Assembly (NCBI GenBank): GCA_020859985.1
Contig: JAJBVD010000016.1
Coordinates: 1-64,000 of the forward strand
DNA from: Clostridiales bacterium
GTDB taxonomy: Bacteria; Bacillota; Clostridia; Lachnospirales; Lachnospiraceae
Length of the DNA stretch: 64,000 bases
Direction of reading: 5' to 3'
In this document: piece after piece, positions 21,788 through 64,000 of the stretch
Position numbering within the stretch: position 1 is the first letter of the stretch
Layout of the letters: every line of letters starts with the position of its first letter
Made by a program: the position numbers and the translations under genes
Notes under the pieces: generated by a model
Told to the model about the DNA's origin: nothing
The model's input: only the letters and a program-made list of their open reading frames with translations
The model's database searches: none

Positions 21788-22020
21788 ATCCTCAGATGCA
21801 AGCAGGTCTCCTGACTTAAGATCATCGTCCTCTATCGCCTTCCCACCAGACAAACGCCTCGCAGTGACATACCACACAGCACCTTTGGTTCCTTATTTTC
21901 AAACAAAGACACCGCATTTTTAATAGAAGACTCCCTATCACAGTGACGGGATCGTACCGGATTTTCACCGGTTTCTCTTTTAATCCCCGATTAGGGGGAA
22001 CATGCATCCTCTATTCAGTT
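21788..22020 (-). promoter_or_regulatory. Cobalamin (B12) riboswitch
   Basis: The minus strand shows the conserved elements in order: GGTGAAAATCC, CCCGTCACTGTGA, CACTGCGAGGCG, GGTGGGAAGGCG and the B12 box AGTCAGGAGACCTGC (at 21801-21817). GATGCA near the start can pair with TGCATC after the B12 box to close P1. Adenosylcobalamin-type riboswitches repress cobalamin synthesis and corrinoid/cobalt uptake genes. This one heads the six-gene ABC importer operon. Confidence 0.96.
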
Positions 22021-38460: not shown

Positions 38461-38503
38461 CTCAATGAAAGCGAAATTACGTTCGCCAGTAAAATGGCAA
38501 ACG

Positions 38504-54686: not shown

Positions 54687-56216
<1,530 letters not shown>

Positions 56217-56339: not shown

Positions 56340-57254
56340 TCAGCCCTTTACAGCACCGGATGTCATACCGTCTACCAGATATCTGTTGAAGATCAGATAG
56401 ATGATCAGGATCGGGATGATACCGAACATGGAGCCTGCGATCAGAAGATCGTAGTTGTTGCCATACGGAGTCAGCAGGGTATTCAAACCAATCTGCAGCG
56501 TGAACTTGCTTGTGTCACGATAAACAAGCATCGGCCACAGCATATTGTTCCAGGAACCCATCGCACAGAGGATCGCCATGGAAGCGAATGCCGGCTTGGT
56601 GATCGGCATCATAATCCTCACGCTGATGCCGTACTCAGTACAGCCATCCACACGCGCCGCATCCAGCAGTTCCTTCGGCAAACTCGTCATGTACTGCCGG
56701 AAGAAGAAGATCGTCGACGCTGCACATAGGCCGGGCAGGATAACACCCGCATTCGTATTGATGATTCCAAGAGTCGTCACTTCCTGATACAGCGGGAGCA
56801 TCAGAATCTCGAACGGAACACTCATCGTACCGATAACCATAAAGAACAGGAAGCCCTGCAGCTTGAACTTATACATCGTAAGTCCATATGCGATAAAATA
56901 ACAGATCAGCAGGGTCAGGATCACAGTCTCACAGGTCAGTACCAGAGAATTCCGATACCACATGAAGTACTTCTGGGAATCCGCAAGTGCTGTCGCATCA
57001 GAAGTATTCGGATGAATAAACATCGTAAACAGATACGAATAGTTATCAAGGCTCCACTCACTGAACTTCAGGTTCAGGGACATGCCGTTCTGGAAGATCT
57101 CACGCGCAGGGCGCAACGATGCGGTCAGGCCTGCAAGCAGAGGGAAAGCAATCAGGGCGCAGATAACTACAAACAATGCCGTTGCAAAAAAAGACGCAAC
57201 CTTATGATTATCTTCCATAGTCCTTTGTTTTGGAACAGAAGTATTCTTTGCCAT
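56340..57254 (-). CDS. CUT1 sugar ABC permease (MalG type)
   Basis: About 304 residues. Six helices, EAA loop LLDAARVDGCTEYGISVRI, C-terminal GAVKG. The ATG at 57254 lies just past the MalF-type stop with GGGGGAGG upstream. Partner of the MalF-type permease for arabino-oligosaccharides. Confidence 0.92.
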   Translation of the reverse strand: MAKNTSVPKQRTMEDNHKVASFFATALFVVICALIAFPLLAGLTASLRPAREIFQNGMSLNLKFSEWSLDNYSYLFTMFIHPNTSDATALADSQKYFMWYRNSLVLTCETVILTLLICYFIAYGLTMYKFKLQGFLFFMVIGTMSVPFEILMLPLYQEVTTLGIINTNAGVILPGLCAASTIFFFRQYMTSLPKELLDAARVDGCTEYGISVRIMMPITKPAFASMAILCAMGSWNNMLWPMLVYRDTSKFTLQIGLNTLLTPYGNNYDLLIAGSMFGIIPILIIYLIFNRYLVDGMTSGAVKG

Positions 57255-57256
57255 CG

Positions 57257-58171
57257 TCAATCATCCTCCCCCCTGTGTTTTCCAACCTTGATCGTACCGG
57301 TCGCAATCAGCTGCGCAACGTTAATCGCCATAGCAATTACCAGGAGTACAACGCCAACCGCGCACGCATAACCCATATCGTTCTTCTCAATACCTCGCTT
57401 GTACAGATATCCGACAATCGTCAGACCGATATTCTTCGGGGACGAGTTGCCGTTCCACAGCATGAAGCTCTCAAGGAACATGGACAGACCTGCGTATACG
57501 GAAATCGTAACTACATACACGATCGTCGGCTTCAGAAGCGGCAGCGTCAGGTACCAGAACTTCTGTCTCGCATTCGCTCCATCGATGTCGCCGGACTCGT
57601 ATATGCTGTTATCAATACTCTTCAGACCGGATACAAAGTACAGCATATTAACACCGGTCCATCTCCACATACACAGAAGGAGCAGCGCAACCCAGCCGGT
57701 TCCCTTTGACTTCAGCCAGGCGATGCTGGACTGCCCAAACAGATGCATCAGCTGGTTCATCTGGGAGCTGTCGCCCTCGGAGAACATCAGACGGAAGAGC
57801 ATACCGGAGATAACTACGGATGTCAGCGCCGGAATGTAAAGGATCACCTTCCAGACGCCCCTCGCTTTGGTCAGACGGCTTTCCATAAGGACCGCCAGCA
57901 GCATCGGGATCGGGATCAGCAGAAGCAGTGTCAGCAGCATATACTCGACACTGTTCAATACCGCTGTTGCAAAGAATTTATCAGACATCAGCTTGACAAA
58001 GTTCTTTGCTCCAATAAAGGTATAACCGCTGAACGTTACTTCCTGAAAGCTCATGATGATACCCGTTACCAGCGGATACGCCCAGAAAATAATCAGACTC
58101 AGCATGAACGGAAGAACAAATACATACGGTGCTACCTTCTGAGAGTAAAGCAGTTTCTTTGCTTTTTTCAC
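57257..58171 (-). CDS. CUT1 sugar ABC permease (MalF type)
   Basis: About 304 residues if it starts at the GTG at 58171 (VKKAKKLLYSQKVAPYVFVL), which has AGAGAGG nine bases upstream; in-frame ATGs at 58192 and 58231 are less well placed. Six helices; EAA loop IYESGDIDGANARQKFWYL. Confidence 0.9.
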   Translation of the reverse strand: MKKAKKLLYSQKVAPYVFVLPFMLSLIIFWAYPLVTGIIMSFQEVTFSGYTFIGAKNFVKLMSDKFFATAVLNSVEYMLLTLLLLIPIPMLLAVLMESRLTKARGVWKVILYIPALTSVVISGMLFRLMFSEGDSSQMNQLMHLFGQSSIAWLKSKGTGWVALLLLCMWRWTGVNMLYFVSGLKSIDNSIYESGDIDGANARQKFWYLTLPLLKPTIVYVVTISVYAGLSMFLESFMLWNGNSSPKNIGLTIVGYLYKRGIEKNDMGYACAVGVVLLVIAMAINVAQLIATGTIKVGKHRGEDD

Positions 58172-58319
58172 TGTAATCAACCTCTCTCTCATTCTGGCAG
58201 AAATTCTCTGCCCTGTAAACATTCCGGACAAGCAGGAACCACACTCTCAGGGTAACAATCCGCCGCCCCGTCCTGTCTGATATCACAGACAGGAATGCAG
58301 CAAATGTTCTATATACAAA

Positions 58320-58428: not shown

Positions 58429-59781
58429 TTACTGCTCCAGCTCGAAGTCAAGATAGTCCTGAGCATCCTGCAGTGCGTCTTCTACGCTCCAGCCATCCTC
58501 AAGAACATAGTTCAGAGTCGTGGTGCAGAAGTAATCGTTCAGTGTCGGGGACTTGCTTGTCGTATAGATGGTGCCGATCGCGTCGTTGTCAGCCAGTTCC
58601 TGAAGAACGGAATACGGCTCTACACGGAAGAACGTGTTGTAAACATTGTCAGAATCAAACGCGAAATCTTCATCATACCACAAGTCTGTGTTGCAAACGT
58701 CAAATCCAAGGTCGTTCCAGATATGAGCCTCGCCCTCTGCGGAGCACTTCGCCCATGCAAGCCACTCAGCTGCCAGCTCCGGATCAGAGCTCTGATTTGT
58801 AACAACTGTACCGGTACCGCCGATACCTACGGAATTGATCTGACCCTCTTCGAATACCGGAAGAGTCGTGATGTCATACTTGCCTTCCATCTCCGGCATA
58901 TAGCTCGTGAAACGACTCATGTACCACATTGCCTTCGGGAAAGAAGCAATCTTGCCTTCCATGATGTTCGCGAAACCAGCCTCAAGGTCTACATGACCAT
59001 CAGTGGAGATCATCGCAATGCCTTCTTCCAGCCATCTCTGCTGCATCTCAAGCATATTGGTAACAGACTCAAGCTGTACATTTACATCGCCGCCGATACC
59101 GCCGGTCCAGTCCTCGCCGTACTCAGCCATCGCGATCCACAGCCAGTCAACGCCGCCCGTATCTACGGAGGTCAGATAAACTTCACCGTTGGAAGCATCA
59201 CGAAGCGCGATACCGAGCTCTTCATACTCATCCCATGTGGTGATGTTCGTATAGTCAAGACCATACTGCTCAAAAATCTCTGCGTTCCAATACATTACCG
59301 TAGCGCCTACGTGTGTCGGAACACCAAGACGGTTGCCGTCTGCGTCAGAGTAAACATCCAGACGAGAGGTTACGAGAGAATCCTCATACTCAGCAAGTGC
59401 GTCGTTCAGAACGTACAGAGGGCTATCGGAGCCGCTGTAGTTCGGGAACTGGCCGATCTCGATATCGCAGATATCCGGAGCGCCGCTGCCTGCCTGCAGG
59501 GACATCATCAGCTTGTTGTGCATATCGGAATACGGATATGTACTGAACGTGATCTGGATCTGTCTGTCCGGGTTGAGCTCGTTCCACTCTTCTACCATGT
59601 TTGCATAGAACTCATTGTGAACGTCTACGAAAGACCACAGCTCAAAATGTGTACCATCATCCGGACCAACCGTTGTAACAGCAGTCGCCTCAACTTCGGT
59701 CTCTTCCTCTGCGGATGCAACTACGCCCATGGAAAGTGCAAGAGCGCCACACATCAGCAATGCCAACCATTTTCTTTTCAT
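58429..59781 (-). CDS. Extracellular sugar-binding protein (CUT1), arabinoside locus
   Basis: About 450 residues from MKRKWLALLMCGALALSMGV, with AAGGAGG eight bases before the ATG. The Cys at residue 11 lies inside the hydrophobic core, not at a lipobox; cleavage is likely after VASA. The mature part has HFELWSFVDVHNEFY, QITFSTYPYSD and GSGAPDICDIEIGQF. Captures arabino- or arabinoxylo-oligosaccharides judging by the neighbouring GH51 and GH43. Confidence 0.9.
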   Translation of the reverse strand: MKRKWLALLMCGALALSMGVVASAEEETEVEATAVTTVGPDDGTHFELWSFVDVHNEFYANMVEEWNELNPDRQIQITFSTYPYSDMHNKLMMSLQAGSGAPDICDIEIGQFPNYSGSDSPLYVLNDALAEYEDSLVTSRLDVYSDADGNRLGVPTHVGATVMYWNAEIFEQYGLDYTNITTWDEYEELGIALRDASNGEVYLTSVDTGGVDWLWIAMAEYGEDWTGGIGGDVNVQLESVTNMLEMQQRWLEEGIAMISTDGHVDLEAGFANIMEGKIASFPKAMWYMSRFTSYMPEMEGKYDITTLPVFEEGQINSVGIGGTGTVVTNQSSDPELAAEWLAWAKCSAEGEAHIWNDLGFDVCNTDLWYDEDFAFDSDNVYNTFFRVEPYSVLQELADNDAIGTIYTTSKSPTLNDYFCTTTLNYVLEDGWSVEDALQDAQDYLDFELEQ

Positions 59782-59953
59782 AGATACTACCTCCTTAAAT
59801 TTTGTGCACACTGCAAATTACGGTACAGTGCGATCTCCGAAGCCTTTGAAAAATTATGCATCTTTCCCAAAAAGTCACTTCGCCGGTCGCGTTCATCCCG
59901 CTTTTTGGTAAAATTGCATATTTTTTCTTGTTCAGCTTCCTTTTGATGTGAAC

Positions 59954-59983
59954 ATTTTACTACCGACCATTCCTCCTTGTCAA
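59954..59983 (-). promoter_or_regulatory. Promoter of the arabinoside importer operon
   Basis: Minus strand: TTGACA, 18 bp, TAAAAT. Divergent from the first ArsR-type regulator. Confidence 0.7.
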
Positions 59984-60078
59984 GGTTTATTTTTGGTTTT
60001 TATTTATCATTTTAGTCTTTTCTAAAATAAAATTGAGGTTTTGAAAATGGCAAAATTACGATTTCGCCCCCTGTTCCG

Positions 60079-60106
60079 TTGACTTTTTCGGCATTTTCGC
60101 TATAAT
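60079..60106 (+). promoter_or_regulatory. Promoter of the first ArsR-type regulator
   Basis: TTGACT, 16 bp, TATAAT. Confidence 0.7.
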
Positions 60107-60179
60107 AAAATCGTTTAGTTCGGAAAAAGCAAAATAATTTTTATTTATGAATTAATTGTGAAAAGAAGGTGTCGAATCT

Positions 60180-61091
60180 GTGAATTCCGTGACATTAGAA
60201 GAGCAACTGCCACTTTTTCAGGCGCTGAGTTCTGAACTGCGTGTGCAGATCGTGAAGCTGGTGGCCGCAAACAGCGGGATTTCTCTGAAACAGCTTGCCG
60301 AAAAACTGAATATGCCGCAGAGCACATTGAGCCCTCATATCGGAAAGCTTGCCTCCTGCGGTCTGATCCGCGTCGAGGAAGAGCCGGCCTCGCACGGCCT
60401 GCAGAAATGCTGCTACCCGAATCAGACACAGATTTTGATCAACTTCGGCGATGACTGCAACCGGCTGCCGCTCTATCAGGCGGAGATTCCGATCGGACAG
60501 TATTCCGATTTCGACGTGACGCCGACCTGCGGTCTCGCGACCACCGCCTCTTTCCTGGGAACGCTGGATGAGCCCCGGCTGTTCGCACACCCGGAGAGCG
60601 CCAAAGCCGGCATTCTCTGGTTCACGACCGGCTATGTGGAATACATCCTGCCCAATTCCTCTTACTGGAATACGAAAATTGAAAAGATCACCTTGATCTT
60701 TGAGATTGGATCCGAATCTCCCGGCGCCAATAACGACTGGCCGTCCCGCATTGTATTTTCCCTGAACGGCACCAGGCTGGGGGAATGGATCTCGCCGGGC
60801 GACTTCGGCGACCGCCGCGGGCGGCAGAACCCGTCCTGGTGGTACAGCTTTCTGAATCAGTACGGTCTTTTAAAAACACTGACGATCAATCAGTCCGGAT
60901 GTTATCTGGACGGCATGCCCTTATCTGCAGTGACCGTGGACGATCTGCAGCTTGACAGCCAGTCCGTGATGAAATTCCGCTTCGAAGTACCCGCCGGTAC
61001 GCCTCTCTCCCACGGTCTGACGATCTACGGGCAGGGATTCGGAGACTATAATCAGGATATCCGGATGATGATCCAGTACCGGAAAGTTTAA
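60180..61091 (+). CDS. ArsR-like winged-helix regulator with a beta-rich C-terminal domain (copy 1)
   Basis: 303 residues, GTG start with AAGGTG upstream. Residues about 8-75 are an ArsR-type winged helix (LFQALSSELRVQIVKLVAANS, QLAEKLNMPQSTLSPHIGKL). Residues about 95-303 are beta-rich (IPIGQYSDFDVTPTCGLATT, IFEIGSESPGANNDWPS, GDFGDRRGRQNPSWW, GFGDYNQDIRM), likely a jelly-roll-like ligand sensor. ArsR regulators are usually about 100 residues. It is divergent from the arabinoside importer and 39 bp from the convergent GH43 gene. An arabinose-containing ligand is inferred, not shown. Confidence 0.85.
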   Translation: MNSVTLEEQLPLFQALSSELRVQIVKLVAANSGISLKQLAEKLNMPQSTLSPHIGKLASCGLIRVEEEPASHGLQKCCYPNQTQILINFGDDCNRLPLYQAEIPIGQYSDFDVTPTCGLATTASFLGTLDEPRLFAHPESAKAGILWFTTGYVEYILPNSSYWNTKIEKITLIFEIGSESPGANNDWPSRIVFSLNGTRLGEWISPGDFGDRRGRQNPSWWYSFLNQYGLLKTLTINQSGCYLDGMPLSAVTVDDLQLDSQSVMKFRFEVPAGTPLSHGLTIYGQGFGDYNQDIRMMIQYRKV

Positions 61092-61098
61092 TCAATCA

Positions 61099-61132
61099 GA
61101 GCCTGCACGATCATCCGCGCAGGCTCTTTTTT
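61099..61132 (+). terminator. Terminator after ArsR-type regulator 1
   Basis: GAGCCTGC/GCAGGCTC stem with a T-run, overlapping the GH43 stop on the other strand. Confidence 0.85.
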
Positions 61133-62090
61133 ATTTCTTCATAAAGATCGGCCGTCCGGTCTGCGGATCCCACTCAATCCGCATCAGCATGGCGTGACGG
61201 TTCGGATTGTACAGCGGATTCCCCGTGATCTCTTCTTCCTGTCTCGCATGGTACACCATGATCGTATTGCCCTGCTCATCTGTGGTGAAGCAGTTGTGTC
61301 CCGGTCCGAAGATGCCCTTGCCCGGATCCGTTTTCAGCACCGGCCAGCGCTCTTTTGTCCAGGACTTCGGATCAAGCAGATCTGCGTCCTCATCCACCGT
61401 AAGCATTCCCATGCAGTATTCCGGACCGGTCTCCGACGCGGAATAGGTCATGTAGATCTTTCCGTCGTGGTGGATGACCGCCGGTCCCTCATTTACCCAG
61501 AAGCCTACACGCTCCCAGTCATAATCCGGCGTGGTCAGCAGCACCTGCACGGTCTCCAGCGTGTAAGGGGAGGACATCCTCGCGATATACAGATTCGAGA
61601 TCTGTTTGCCGACGCCGACCTTCTCCGCCCACACATAGTAGCGCTGTCCTTTGTTCTCAAAGATCGTCGCATCAAGAGAAAAAGCCTCAAACGAGAACGG
61701 ATCGTCCGCCGCCCGCTGCATCTTGCCTTTCTCAACCCATGTGCCGGTGATCGGGTCTTCATCCGCGCACTCCAGCACGTAAGGACGGATCTCCCAGATG
61801 TCGTCCTTGTCGCCGCCCGCATAATAAATGTACCATTTCCCATCCAGATAATAAAGCTCCGGCGCCCAGATGTGGATGCTCATGATCCCGCTCTCATGCT
61901 TTTTCCAGATCATGACCTCCTCGGCATCCTTCAGTCCGGCCAGCGTATCGGAATGCCGCAGCACGATCCCATCATAAGCCGGTATCGAAGCAGTAAAATA
62001 ATACGTACCGTCTGTGTGCCGGTATACATACGGATCCGCCCGCTGCAGGATCCACGGTTCATTAAAGATCAGTTCTGTCGATGCGCTCAT
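61131..62090 (-). CDS. GH43-family arabinosidase/xylosidase
   Basis: 319 residues, single five-bladed propeller: base Asp in RADPYVYRHTDGTYYF (D19), pKa-tuning Asp in SLDATIFE (about 139), acid Glu in NEGPAVIHHDG (about 199), plus APELYYLDGKWYIYYA. No signal peptide, so it is intracellular. Acts on arabinofuranosyl or xylosyl oligosaccharides together with GH51. GGGAGG precedes the ATG. Flanked by the two ArsR-type regulators. Confidence 0.92.
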   Translation of the reverse strand: MSASTELIFNEPWILQRADPYVYRHTDGTYYFTASIPAYDGIVLRHSDTLAGLKDAEEVMIWKKHESGIMSIHIWAPELYYLDGKWYIYYAGGDKDDIWEIRPYVLECADEDPITGTWVEKGKMQRAADDPFSFEAFSLDATIFENKGQRYYVWAEKVGVGKQISNLYIARMSSPYTLETVQVLLTTPDYDWERVGFWVNEGPAVIHHDGKIYMTYSASETGPEYCMGMLTVDEDADLLDPKSWTKERWPVLKTDPGKGIFGPGHNCFTTDEQGNTIMVYHARQEEEITGNPLYNPNRHAMLMRIEWDPQTGRPIFMKK

Positions 62091-62229
62091 AATAATGTAC
62101 CTCCCGGATTAGTTTTGCACGGTTCTTTTTTCTATACTATAATAAGGTTTTACTGTCTAAGTACGGCAACGCCGTCAGCCAATTAACCATTATATGTTTT
62201 TTTTGAAGCTTTGCAAGGAAAATTTTTTA

Positions 62230-62258
62230 TTGCCATTTTTTCATTTCTTCGTTATAAT
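62230..62258 (+). promoter_or_regulatory. Promoter of the second ArsR-type regulator
   Basis: TTGCCA, 17 bp, TATAAT. The TTGCCATTTT word also occurs, inverted, upstream of copy 1 (60044-60055), a possible shared binding site. Confidence 0.65.
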
Positions 62259-62332
62259 GGCACAAAGATTTTGGTTTTTTCTAAATTAATTTGTCATTTT
62301 TTACGTGAAGATTGCAGAAAGGACGCATTGCC

Positions 62333-63253
62333 ATGATTCATATCGAAAATCTTGAGGAAGGACTTCCCATCTTCAAAGCGCTCGGATCGGAAGTTCGCAT
62401 ACGGCTCGTACAGCTTCTGCTGGAAAATAAAGAAATGAACATGAACGACCTGGCGTCCCATCTGGGCATTACGAACGGTGCCCTGACGAGTCATGTGAAA
62501 AAGCTGGAAGAGAGCGGGATCGTCACGATCATGAATGAGCACGCCGGACATGGCAATCAAAAGGTCTGCCGTGTCAATGTAGATAAGATTCTGATCGATA
62601 TCATACCGGAAGAAGAGGATTCCGCAGCGAACAGCTATTCCATCAACATTCCGATCGGGCATTATTTCAACTACTCGGTCTACCCGACCTGCGGACTTTC
62701 CACGTCGAAAAAGCTGATCGGCGAGGTGGACGACCCACGCTTCTTCGCTCACCCGGAGCATGTGAATGCACAGATCCTGTGGTTTGGAAAAGGCTACATC
62801 GACTACCGCATTCCCAATATGCTGCCGCCGGGCAACCATCTGGACCAGCTCATCATCTCCTTTGAGATCGGCAGCGAGGCTCCCGGCACGAACAACGACT
62901 GGCCCTCGGACATCACCTTTATGCTGAACCGCACCCGTCTTGGCACCTGGACCAGCCCCGGCGACTTCGGCGATGTGCGCGGTATGTTCACCCCCGGCTG
63001 GTGGTTCCCGAACTGGAACCAGTACGGCACGCTGAAAATGCTGGTGGTCAATAAAAAAGGAACCTTTATCGACGGCATTAAGATCTCAGACATCACGACG
63101 AGCCGGCTTGATATCTCATCCCAGGACGACATCACGTTCCGCTTCCAGACACAGGAGCCGGCCGTGAATGTCGGCGGCATCACGCTGTTTGGGAAAGAAT
63201 TCGGAAATTATAATCAGGATATCCGCGTGCGCGTGAACTACAGTCCGGCGTAA
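62333..63253 (+). CDS. ArsR-like winged-helix regulator with a beta-rich C-terminal domain (copy 2)
   Basis: About 306 residues from MIHIENLEEGLPIFKALGSE; AAAGGA lies upstream. N-terminal ArsR-type winged helix (EVRIRLVQLLLENKEMNMND, HLGITNGALTSHVKKLEESG) and the same C-terminal domain as copy 1. Shared blocks include IPIGHYFNYSVYPTCGLSTS, FEIGSEAPGTNNDWPSDITF, SPGDFGDVRG and FGNYNQDIRVRVNY. Divergent from GH43 and close to the second GH51 gene, so it probably controls one or both. Confidence 0.86.
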   Translation: MIHIENLEEGLPIFKALGSEVRIRLVQLLLENKEMNMNDLASHLGITNGALTSHVKKLEESGIVTIMNEHAGHGNQKVCRVNVDKILIDIIPEEEDSAANSYSINIPIGHYFNYSVYPTCGLSTSKKLIGEVDDPRFFAHPEHVNAQILWFGKGYIDYRIPNMLPPGNHLDQLIISFEIGSEAPGTNNDWPSDITFMLNRTRLGTWTSPGDFGDVRGMFTPGWWFPNWNQYGTLKMLVVNKKGTFIDGIKISDITTSRLDISSQDDITFRFQTQEPAVNVGGITLFGKEFGNYNQDIRVRVNYSPA

Positions 63254-63276: not shown

Positions 63277-63537
63277 TCACCACCTGCGTTCTACATCCGG
63301 GCATTTCCGGACTTTGATAGCTGCCCGCAGTTCCACAAAGCAGCCGCAGAGTCTGCACATCCCGTTGAGGATGTGTTCGCATTCGCTGCACTTCGTAAGA
63401 CGCGCTTCATAGGTTGCCTGGTCGACGCGGTCGTCATCATCAAGATTCGCCAGGTATCCGGCCAGTTTTTCCCGGAATGCCTCTTCTGTCTCTTCATACA
63501 ACAGGCATTTCCGGCAGATTCTCAGATACTCACTCAT
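63277..63537 (-). CDS. Small Cys-rich protein, DUF6171-like
   Basis: 86 residues. Eight Cys, in pairs: RICRKC at the N-terminus, then TKCSEC, GMCRLCGC and a last KCPD. This spacing suggests two zinc sites. The CGCFVELRAA block is typical of the small protein family I know as DUF6171. AGGAG precedes the ATG. It lies downstream of the second GH51 gene, past a terminator. Function unknown. Confidence 0.82.
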   Translation of the reverse strand: MSEYLRICRKCLLYEETEEAFREKLAGYLANLDDDDRVDQATYEARLTKCSECEHILNGMCRLCGCFVELRAAIKVRKCPDVERRW

Positions 63538-63601: not shown

Positions 63602-64000
63602 TTATTGCAGCTCCACATCCAGGCGAACGACCGCGCACGGCGGGATGGTAAAGGAAAGTCCCTGCTCCGTAACAGTTACGCCGTCGAATGGCTTCACAGT
63701 TACAACTTCCGGCTCTTCGAACGTGTTCTTCTCATGCATTTCACCGGACACGGTTTCCGCGGTTACGGATTTTACCGCATGCCCGACGATGCTCGTCTCC
63801 ACCGGATACGCGGCGTCCGCGGAAGCGTTCGTTACCGTGATGTGCAGGACGCCGTCCGCATCTACGGAAGCGGACTCGGTCAGGTTCGGCAGATGGTATG
63901 TAATCTTGCGTCCTCCCTCACCGGTTCCAAACCGGTCGTCGCCAAGGTCGATCTCCTCTGTCTCGATGGAGCTGTCCACCAAATCAGCGTCCTGATGTAC
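63602..64000 (-). CDS. Second GH51 alpha-L-arabinofuranosidase, C-terminal part
   Basis: The open frame runs past the window edge; only the last 132 codons are seen, with no start. The beta-sandwich C-terminal domain reads YHLPNLTESASVDADGVLHI, VTNASADAAYPVETSIVG and IPPCAVVRLDVELQ, as in GH51 enzymes. The catalytic barrel lies outside. This would be the second GH51 of the locus; a GH43-associated or other family is unlikely but not excluded. Confidence 0.75.
   Translation of the reverse strand, partial: VHQDADLVDSSIETEEIDLGDDRFGTGEGGRKITYHLPNLTESASVDADGVLHITVTNASADAAYPVETSIVGHAVKSVTAETVSGEMHEKNTFEEPEVVTVKPFDGVTVTEQGLSFTIPPCAVVRLDVELQ

Follow-up and report, generated by a model that had tools for sequence, protein, structure and literature searches.

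What do two long ArsR-type regulators, encoded on either side of a GH43 glycoside hydrolase gene in an arabinoside locus, sense, and what do they control? The locus lies on contig JAJBVD010000016.1 of a Clostridiales bacterium of the Lachnospiraceae (assembly GCA_020859985.1); the window, that is, the whole stretch of DNA analyzed, is the first 64,000 nucleotides of this contig. The regulator genes are regB (protein P0001; positions 60180 to 61091, plus strand) and regA (protein P0002; 62333 to 63253, plus strand). We consider it likely that they encode two one-component regulators of the kind of ArbA, each with a palindrome-binding head and an arabinoside-binding sensor like a carbohydrate-binding module (CBM), and that they control the whole locus. 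The fusion itself, the predicted fold class, the gene linkage, and the shared operator-like sites and their positions were computed here.

Regulator proteins and the predicted fold of their C-terminal domain

The regB open reading frame begins with GTG and encodes 303 residues; its assignment comes from Pfam helix-turn-helix (HTH) matches, alignments, and a clade of 20 members. The regA frame, assigned by Pfam and as a paralogue of regB, is listed from a TTG at 62312 (62312 to 63253, plus strand), and the ATG at 62333 is probably its true start, giving 306 residues. The two proteins are 43% identical in a pairwise alignment, share the motifs NNDWPS, PGDFGD, and YNQDI, and are the only two family matches in their own 3.8-Mb genome. 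ArsR-type HTH models cover residues ~16 to 70 of both, with PF01022 and PF12840 above their gathering scores, and an ArsR-type winged helix was matched by 20 of 20 family members at E ≤ 1. The original prediction, made from the letters of the window, had claimed two paralogues of about 300 residues with an ArsR-like winged helix and these C-terminal motifs, and it holds on each of these points.

ArsR/SmtB metalloregulators are about 100 residues long and dimerize through a C-terminal alpha-5 helix. The window regulators resemble CzrA, CadC, SmtB, and HlyU in the winged-helix head, in their closest solved sequences among the matches listed, and in fold. They differ in their length of ~300 residues, in their sugar-gene setting, and in their NCBIfam metalloregulator (NF033788) scores of 45.2 and 46.8 bits, which fall below the cut-off of 55. 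In addition, the wing in the P0002 model is followed by strands in place of the classic alpha-5 helix. These differences bear on the possibility that both are metal- or thiol-sensing ArsR proteins that lie near sugar genes by chance, with Cys79 and Cys120 binding metal or reacting with thiols. The ArsR-type head of both proteins fits that explanation, as do an invariant Cys120 and a nearly invariant Cys79 among 50 sequences and the name metalloregulator given to one member in the public record. Against the subthreshold scores, the predicted absence of alpha-5, and the linkage to GH51 and sugar importer genes across several phyla, we judge it very improbable.

The remaining ~210 C-terminal residues of P0001 and P0002 have no match in Pfam (CBM families included), NCBIfam, or solved-structure sequences among the matches listed. 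The same holds for the alignment of 20 members: neither the first 25 of its 71 family matches nor the best 60 of its 138 solved-structure sequences cover the C-terminal part; in both phmmer (28 rows) and the profile search (best 60 of 138), solved structures match the head only. Since the VIA rows for the whole-protein model were HTH domains, residues 97 to 306 of P0002 were modeled alone. The resulting model predicts a beta-sandwich like that of CBM6, CBM35, and CBM36 over about 115 to 130 residues, and the VIA rows for the lone domain are mainly CBM and lectin-like domains. The C-terminal domain of P0001 is, by its sequence, homologous to the modeled domain. The modeled fold thus resembles carbohydrate-binding modules, and together with the HTH matches it agrees with the earlier suggestion of a one-component regulator in which a beta-rich domain is joined to an ArsR-type head. 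Compared with CBM6, CBM35, and CBM36, with which it would have the beta-sandwich in common, the domain is cytosolic, is fused to a DNA-binding head, and spans ~210 residues, among them those of a long conserved loop (SPGDFGD..RG...P.WW....NQYG). Homology to CBM6 was not detectable by profile: hhalign against 12 CBM6 domains (of 25 fetched), a comparison with the CBM6 profile only, gave a probability of 0.9%.

Could the domain instead be an arabinoside-processing enzyme, a lyase or hydrolase, with DNA binding secondary? The large glycosidase EngBF is on top of the Foldseek list, jelly-roll PL7 lyases appear low in it, and the conserved loop could hold catalytic residues. However, the domains in the VIA rows are mainly non-catalytic, and of the 71 families matched by the 20 members, the first 25 include none of enzymes. 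We therefore hold this explanation to be very unlikely indeed. As a separate observation, one locus (L166:187-2319, minus strand, genome G310) encodes a lipoprotein-like protein of 710 residues in which the same C-terminal domain directly follows the signal, with no DNA-binding head and no Pfam matches; this is the sole such case among 46 places.

Gene linkage and the relation to ArbA

Label-free clustering of the neighbors of family genes returned importer permeases, GH51, GH43, and the solute-binding protein (SBP). After 161 regulators were thinned to 52 clusters, 47 had enough flanking DNA; GH51 or GH43 lies within 8 kb in 36 of these, those or importer genes in 41, and none in 6, of which one (L189) adjoins a GH43 gene of another type and another (L182) has GH28 nearby. 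On plasmids of Roseinatronobacter, Rhizobium, Sinorhizobium, and Roseibium, the gene adjoins annotated alpha-N-arabinofuranosidase and ABC importer genes; no importer is present in the Enterococcus plasmid region, and two Deinococcus regions have importers and lack GH51. The pairing with GH43 and GH51 that the original prediction proposed to check is thus found in several phyla. The regB-type gene of L059 adjoins GH127 (beta-L-arabinofuranosidase model), and more divergent family members adjoin GH42, GH2, and GH85 genes; therefore, the range of the family probably goes beyond arabinosides, and it probably senses more than these. In seven loci (L103, L105, L108, L109, L112, L118, and L122) a gene of ~510 to 530 codons lies just 5' of the regulator on the same strand, and in L105 it encodes a sodium:solute symporter.

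The family is matched in 45 of 98 relatives' genomes at an E value of 1e-5, some via the head alone, and, at 1e-20, in 15 of 299 genomes drawn from the whole phylum. Named genomes contained at least 580 relatives, and the best 80, which were kept, are mostly Lachnospiraceae or Paenibacillus and kin by label, with one Treponema. Among 72,556 plasmid records 260 match (Rhizobium, 149; Sinorhizobium, 68; also Deinococcus and Enterococcus), while no relative was found in the viral contigs searched.

In the window, the open reading frame map and Pfam agree with the setting first described, around GH43 and beside GH51 and importer genes. The GH43 gene (61131 to 62090, minus strand; PF04616, E = 1.8e-64) lies between regB and regA. 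On one side of the pair, divergent from regB, runs an operon (59811 to 54687, minus strand) of the SBP of a sugar importer (58429 to 59811; PF01547; translation probably begins at the ATG with its first base at 59781), permease 1 (57257 to 58231; PF00528), permease 2 (56340 to 57260; PF00528), and last a GH51 alpha-L-arabinofuranosidase (54687 to 56204; PF06964; NF051901 [ArfA], 767.8 bits, cut-off 625). On the other side is a second GH51 gene, minus strand, whose 3' part is in the window (63602 to 64000, continuing to C60:65164; PF06964 and the L071 gene list). The genome has three Alpha-L-AF_C places, two of which flank the regulator pair. A small Cys-rich frame of 86 codons (63277 to 63537, minus strand) lies between regA and the second GH51 gene.

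In genomes G249 and G275, a family member 54% identical to P0002 is divergent from a GH51 gene. Three of the four genomes of their genus have two or three GH48 genes, the longest of their frames reaching 1909 residues, and the fourth (G373) has none. Several GH48 genes in very long frames presumably fit Caldicellulosiruptor, and G249 and G275 probably belong to this genus. For Caldicellulosiruptor bescii, the part of PMC8579813 (2021) available to us describes ArbA/ArbR, a predicted regulator of the ArsR family whose gene is divergent from abfA, a GH51 gene, with three predicted sites in the region between them. ArbA is presented there as the first member of its family to regulate carbohydrate use, so the idea that an arabinoside gene is under ArsR-family control is already known. 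The divergent arrangement with GH51 is that of L183 and L184, the loci of the probable Caldicellulosiruptor members, and here the importer-GH51 operon is divergent from regB. With the held-out matrix described below (site cut-off, 12), L183 has two intergenic matches, of 15.4 and 9.7, and the best match in L184, 11.3, is below the cut-off. Because a probable Caldicellulosiruptor member is 54% identical to P0002 and divergent from GH51, with a matrix match between the two genes, the family of the window regulators is probably that of ArbA. In that part of PMC8579813, ArbA is one gene, repression is inferred, and the sensor domain is unnamed, whereas here there are two paralogues, a predicted fold, a motif from two bacterial groups, and predicted importer control.

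An ArsR-family gene also heads the arabinan cluster of Geobacillus C56-T3, with an SBP, two permeases, a GH43 arabinanase, and GH2, in the consulted part of PMC4428132 (2015), where it has an annotation line alone, with no domain, motif, or mechanism. The order of that cluster is the same as in Priestia megaterium (L257). No description of the sensor domain was found in the literature searched, most subscription journals being outside its scope. AraR likewise controls arabinose and arabinoside genes in Bacillota, and we take its head and sensor to differ from those of the window regulators. It is a GntR-family arabinose repressor, according to the part of PMC8579813 seen.

Candidate operators and mode of control

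In 160 upstream regions of family genes, TTTAG-N6-CTAAA occurs in 26 and TTTTA-N8-TAAAA in 31, compared with a top count of 11 for any dyad in 30 shuffles, a control in which the relatedness among the regions was kept. Expectation-maximization on a Lachnospiraceae-centered group, with 73 of its 110 regions used, yielded TATTTTAG-N6-CTAAAATA; for Paenibacillus and its relatives, with 34 of 45 used, it yielded a similar palindrome richer in AT. A held-out matrix was trained on 38 regions that exclude both window clades (30 used), with a seed picked after all regions had been viewed. In the 64-kb window it ranks 60008 to 60029 first (17.8) and 62267 to 62288 second (14.2); the next match in the window, at 22016, scores 11.4, and over the longer contig third place goes to 65254 (12.1). 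A training-only seed, TTTAG-N6-CTAAA (tied commonest dyad, 6 of 38), puts the same two sites on top, with 17.4 and 13.9. Across 80 loci outside the training set, which include the window's own locus, the matrix finds 96 sites in the DNA 5' of regulator, GH51, GH43, and SBP genes (39 kb in total), compared with 6 in the remaining intergenic DNA (120 kb) and 14 in coding DNA (1.07 Mb), and 12 column-permuted matrices give 2 to 10 sites in the first class. A weak match at a GC-rich locus of a Sinorhizobium meliloti plasmid (L260:1976-1997), the top matrix match there, lies 25 to 46 bp 5' of an arabinofuranosidase gene and recurs in Sinorhizobium sp. K101. With a held-out score of only 5.9 and presence in 2 of 14 plasmid regions, it is not claimed as an operator.

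The first-ranked site, candidate operator O1 (CATTTTAGTCTTTTCTAAAATA, 60008 to 60029), lies between the importer operon and regB. Based on promoters predicted by consensus scan, its center is at about −72 from the importer start (TTGACA-18-TAAAAT, 59954 to 59983, minus strand, 11/12) and −95 from the regB start (TTGACT-16-TATAAT, 60079 to 60106, plus strand, 11/12). With a matrix trained on the regB clade itself, 19 of its 20 members have an upstream site like O1, at −163 to −201; the 20th has too little upstream DNA for the scan. A weaker candidate, O1b (TAGTTCGGAAAAAGCAAAATAA, 60116 to 60137, score 7.3), is just 3' of the regB −10 box; by eye a similar stretch is present upstream of regB-type genes, and the orthologues in L059 and L063 score 12.3 and 14.0 at +13. 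The second-ranked site, candidate operator O2 (GATTTTGGTTTTTTCTAAATTA, 62267 to 62288), is just 3' of the −10 box of regA (TTGCCA-17-TATAAT, 62230 to 62258, plus strand, 11/12), with its center at +12, and is weakly supported as an operator. The GH43 promoter is predicted at 62189 to 62216 (TTGCAA-16-TATAAT, minus strand, 10/12). Site 3, at 65254, is 90 bp upstream of the second GH51 gene and touches the −10 box of its promoter.

These palindromes are distinct from the word TTGCCATTTT that the original prediction noted upstream of both regulators. The word is indeed there, and the window has three copies (60044, minus; 62230, plus; 38491, minus) compared with a mean of 0.22 expected. As a shared operator it was rejected: at regA it is the −35 hexamer, at the other regulator it is on the opposite strand, and the third copy is at 38491. 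The shared palindrome is the better operator candidate.

Where the sites lie relative to promoters bears on the mode of control. A divergent neighbor is labeled in 31 cluster representatives; it is an SBP gene in 19, and both site and promoter are present in 14. In 12 of these 14 SBP promoters, 7 of them belonging to regB-clade members, the center of a site falls from −73 to −51, on the 5' side of the −35 box. Two of the 12 loci (L117 and L120) carry two sites each, at −51/−52 and −71/−72. The zone from about −71 to −51 is typical of activator binding, while O1b, O2, and site 3, just 3' of or at −10 boxes, lie at positions where repressors would bind. Because the SBP-promoter sites fall in the first zone and the others in the second, dual control, that is, activation combined with autorepression, is favored only slightly over simple repression. 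The alternative is that each copy acts at these palindromes purely as a repressor and is released by arabinoside, with the −71 site looping to O1b (108 bp away) or blocking another protein. ArsR-family regulators usually repress, and repression is what PMC8579813, in the part seen, infers for its member from site positions. Sites at +27 of the GH51 promoter in L183 and +36 of the SBP promoter in L032, along with O1b, O2, and site 3, are also as expected of plain repressors, but the 12 SBP promoters and the paired sites of L117 and L120 are not. We give plain repression a real chance, though less than an even one.

Under dual control, the ArsR-type winged helix would bind the palindrome, and the neighboring importer would bring in arabinoside, with an arabino-oligosaccharide or arabinose as the ligand. 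Binding of arabinoside by the cytosolic CBM6/35/36-like beta-sandwich would then alter DNA binding. RegA and RegB would jointly govern the importer-GH51 operon, GH43, the second GH51 gene, and their own genes, activating the importer promoter through the site at about −71 and repressing their own promoters through a site just 3' of the −10 box.

Several observations weigh against this account. The sites in SBP promoters cluster at about −71, −62, and −51, one helical turn apart, but this phase was counted with a matrix trained on the same regions and with no null comparison, and L023 (−156) and L032 (+36) do not fit. O2 has no counterpart scoring ≥12 in the other GH43/regA cluster representatives (0 of 4) and is lost in the closest relatives. 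With two further training-only seeds, the matrix moves away to different AT-rich patterns, and the two window sites then do not come out on top. Finally, TTTWRGN6CTAAAW occurs at four places in the 3.8-Mb genome, two of them at this locus, and its reversed control matches more often, so the operator claim rests on position and conservation, not on rarity.

Two paralogues and the wider family

Why are there two copies? regB and regA fall into separate clades of 20 and 18 sequences, with FastTree support of 99 and 100. Between the clades (17 and 18 members aligned), the C-terminal part is 48% identical and the head 33%, which together with the tree rules out a recent duplication. The C-terminal part contains 64 of the 71 positions conserved in both clades, and the clades differ in the recognition-helix region. 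These results fit two regulators that would sense one sugar, or two similar ones, and prefer different DNA sites. The contrast between head and sensor nevertheless reflects rate in part: the head is 52% and the sensor 66% identical within the regB clade, compared with 80% and 77% within the regA clade. The earlier proposal that the two copies divide control is thus partly supported by their old, separate clades and by a sensor better conserved than the head.

Three regA-type orthologues (L004, G001:C85; L008, G036:C136; L010, G040:C196) have an in-frame stop codon, and the regA-type copy may be decaying in some species. In L065, L067, L068, and L069, GH43 is flanked by two convergent family members; in each pair one groups near the regA clade, and its partner lies outside both window clades. 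Thus, the pairing may have arisen more than once.

More broadly, and tentatively, a CBM fold may have moved into the cytosol on a metalloregulator-type head to give widespread glycan sensors in at least three phyla (Bacillota, Deinococcota, and Pseudomonadota), with two old paralogues here that would pair the same sugar with different heads, phased importer activation, and autorepression; we regard this as possible, somewhat short of probable. Ligand, operator, and direction of control are amenable to testing in culturable species such as Paenibacillus and Sinorhizobium meliloti, and a modular sugar sensor for gene circuits is a possible use. None of the family entries searched covers the sensor; its fold is predicted to be CBM-like, and an operator is predicted as well. 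Since records label members ArsR family, helix-turn-helix, or metalloregulator, the name may hide a widespread sugar-response system.
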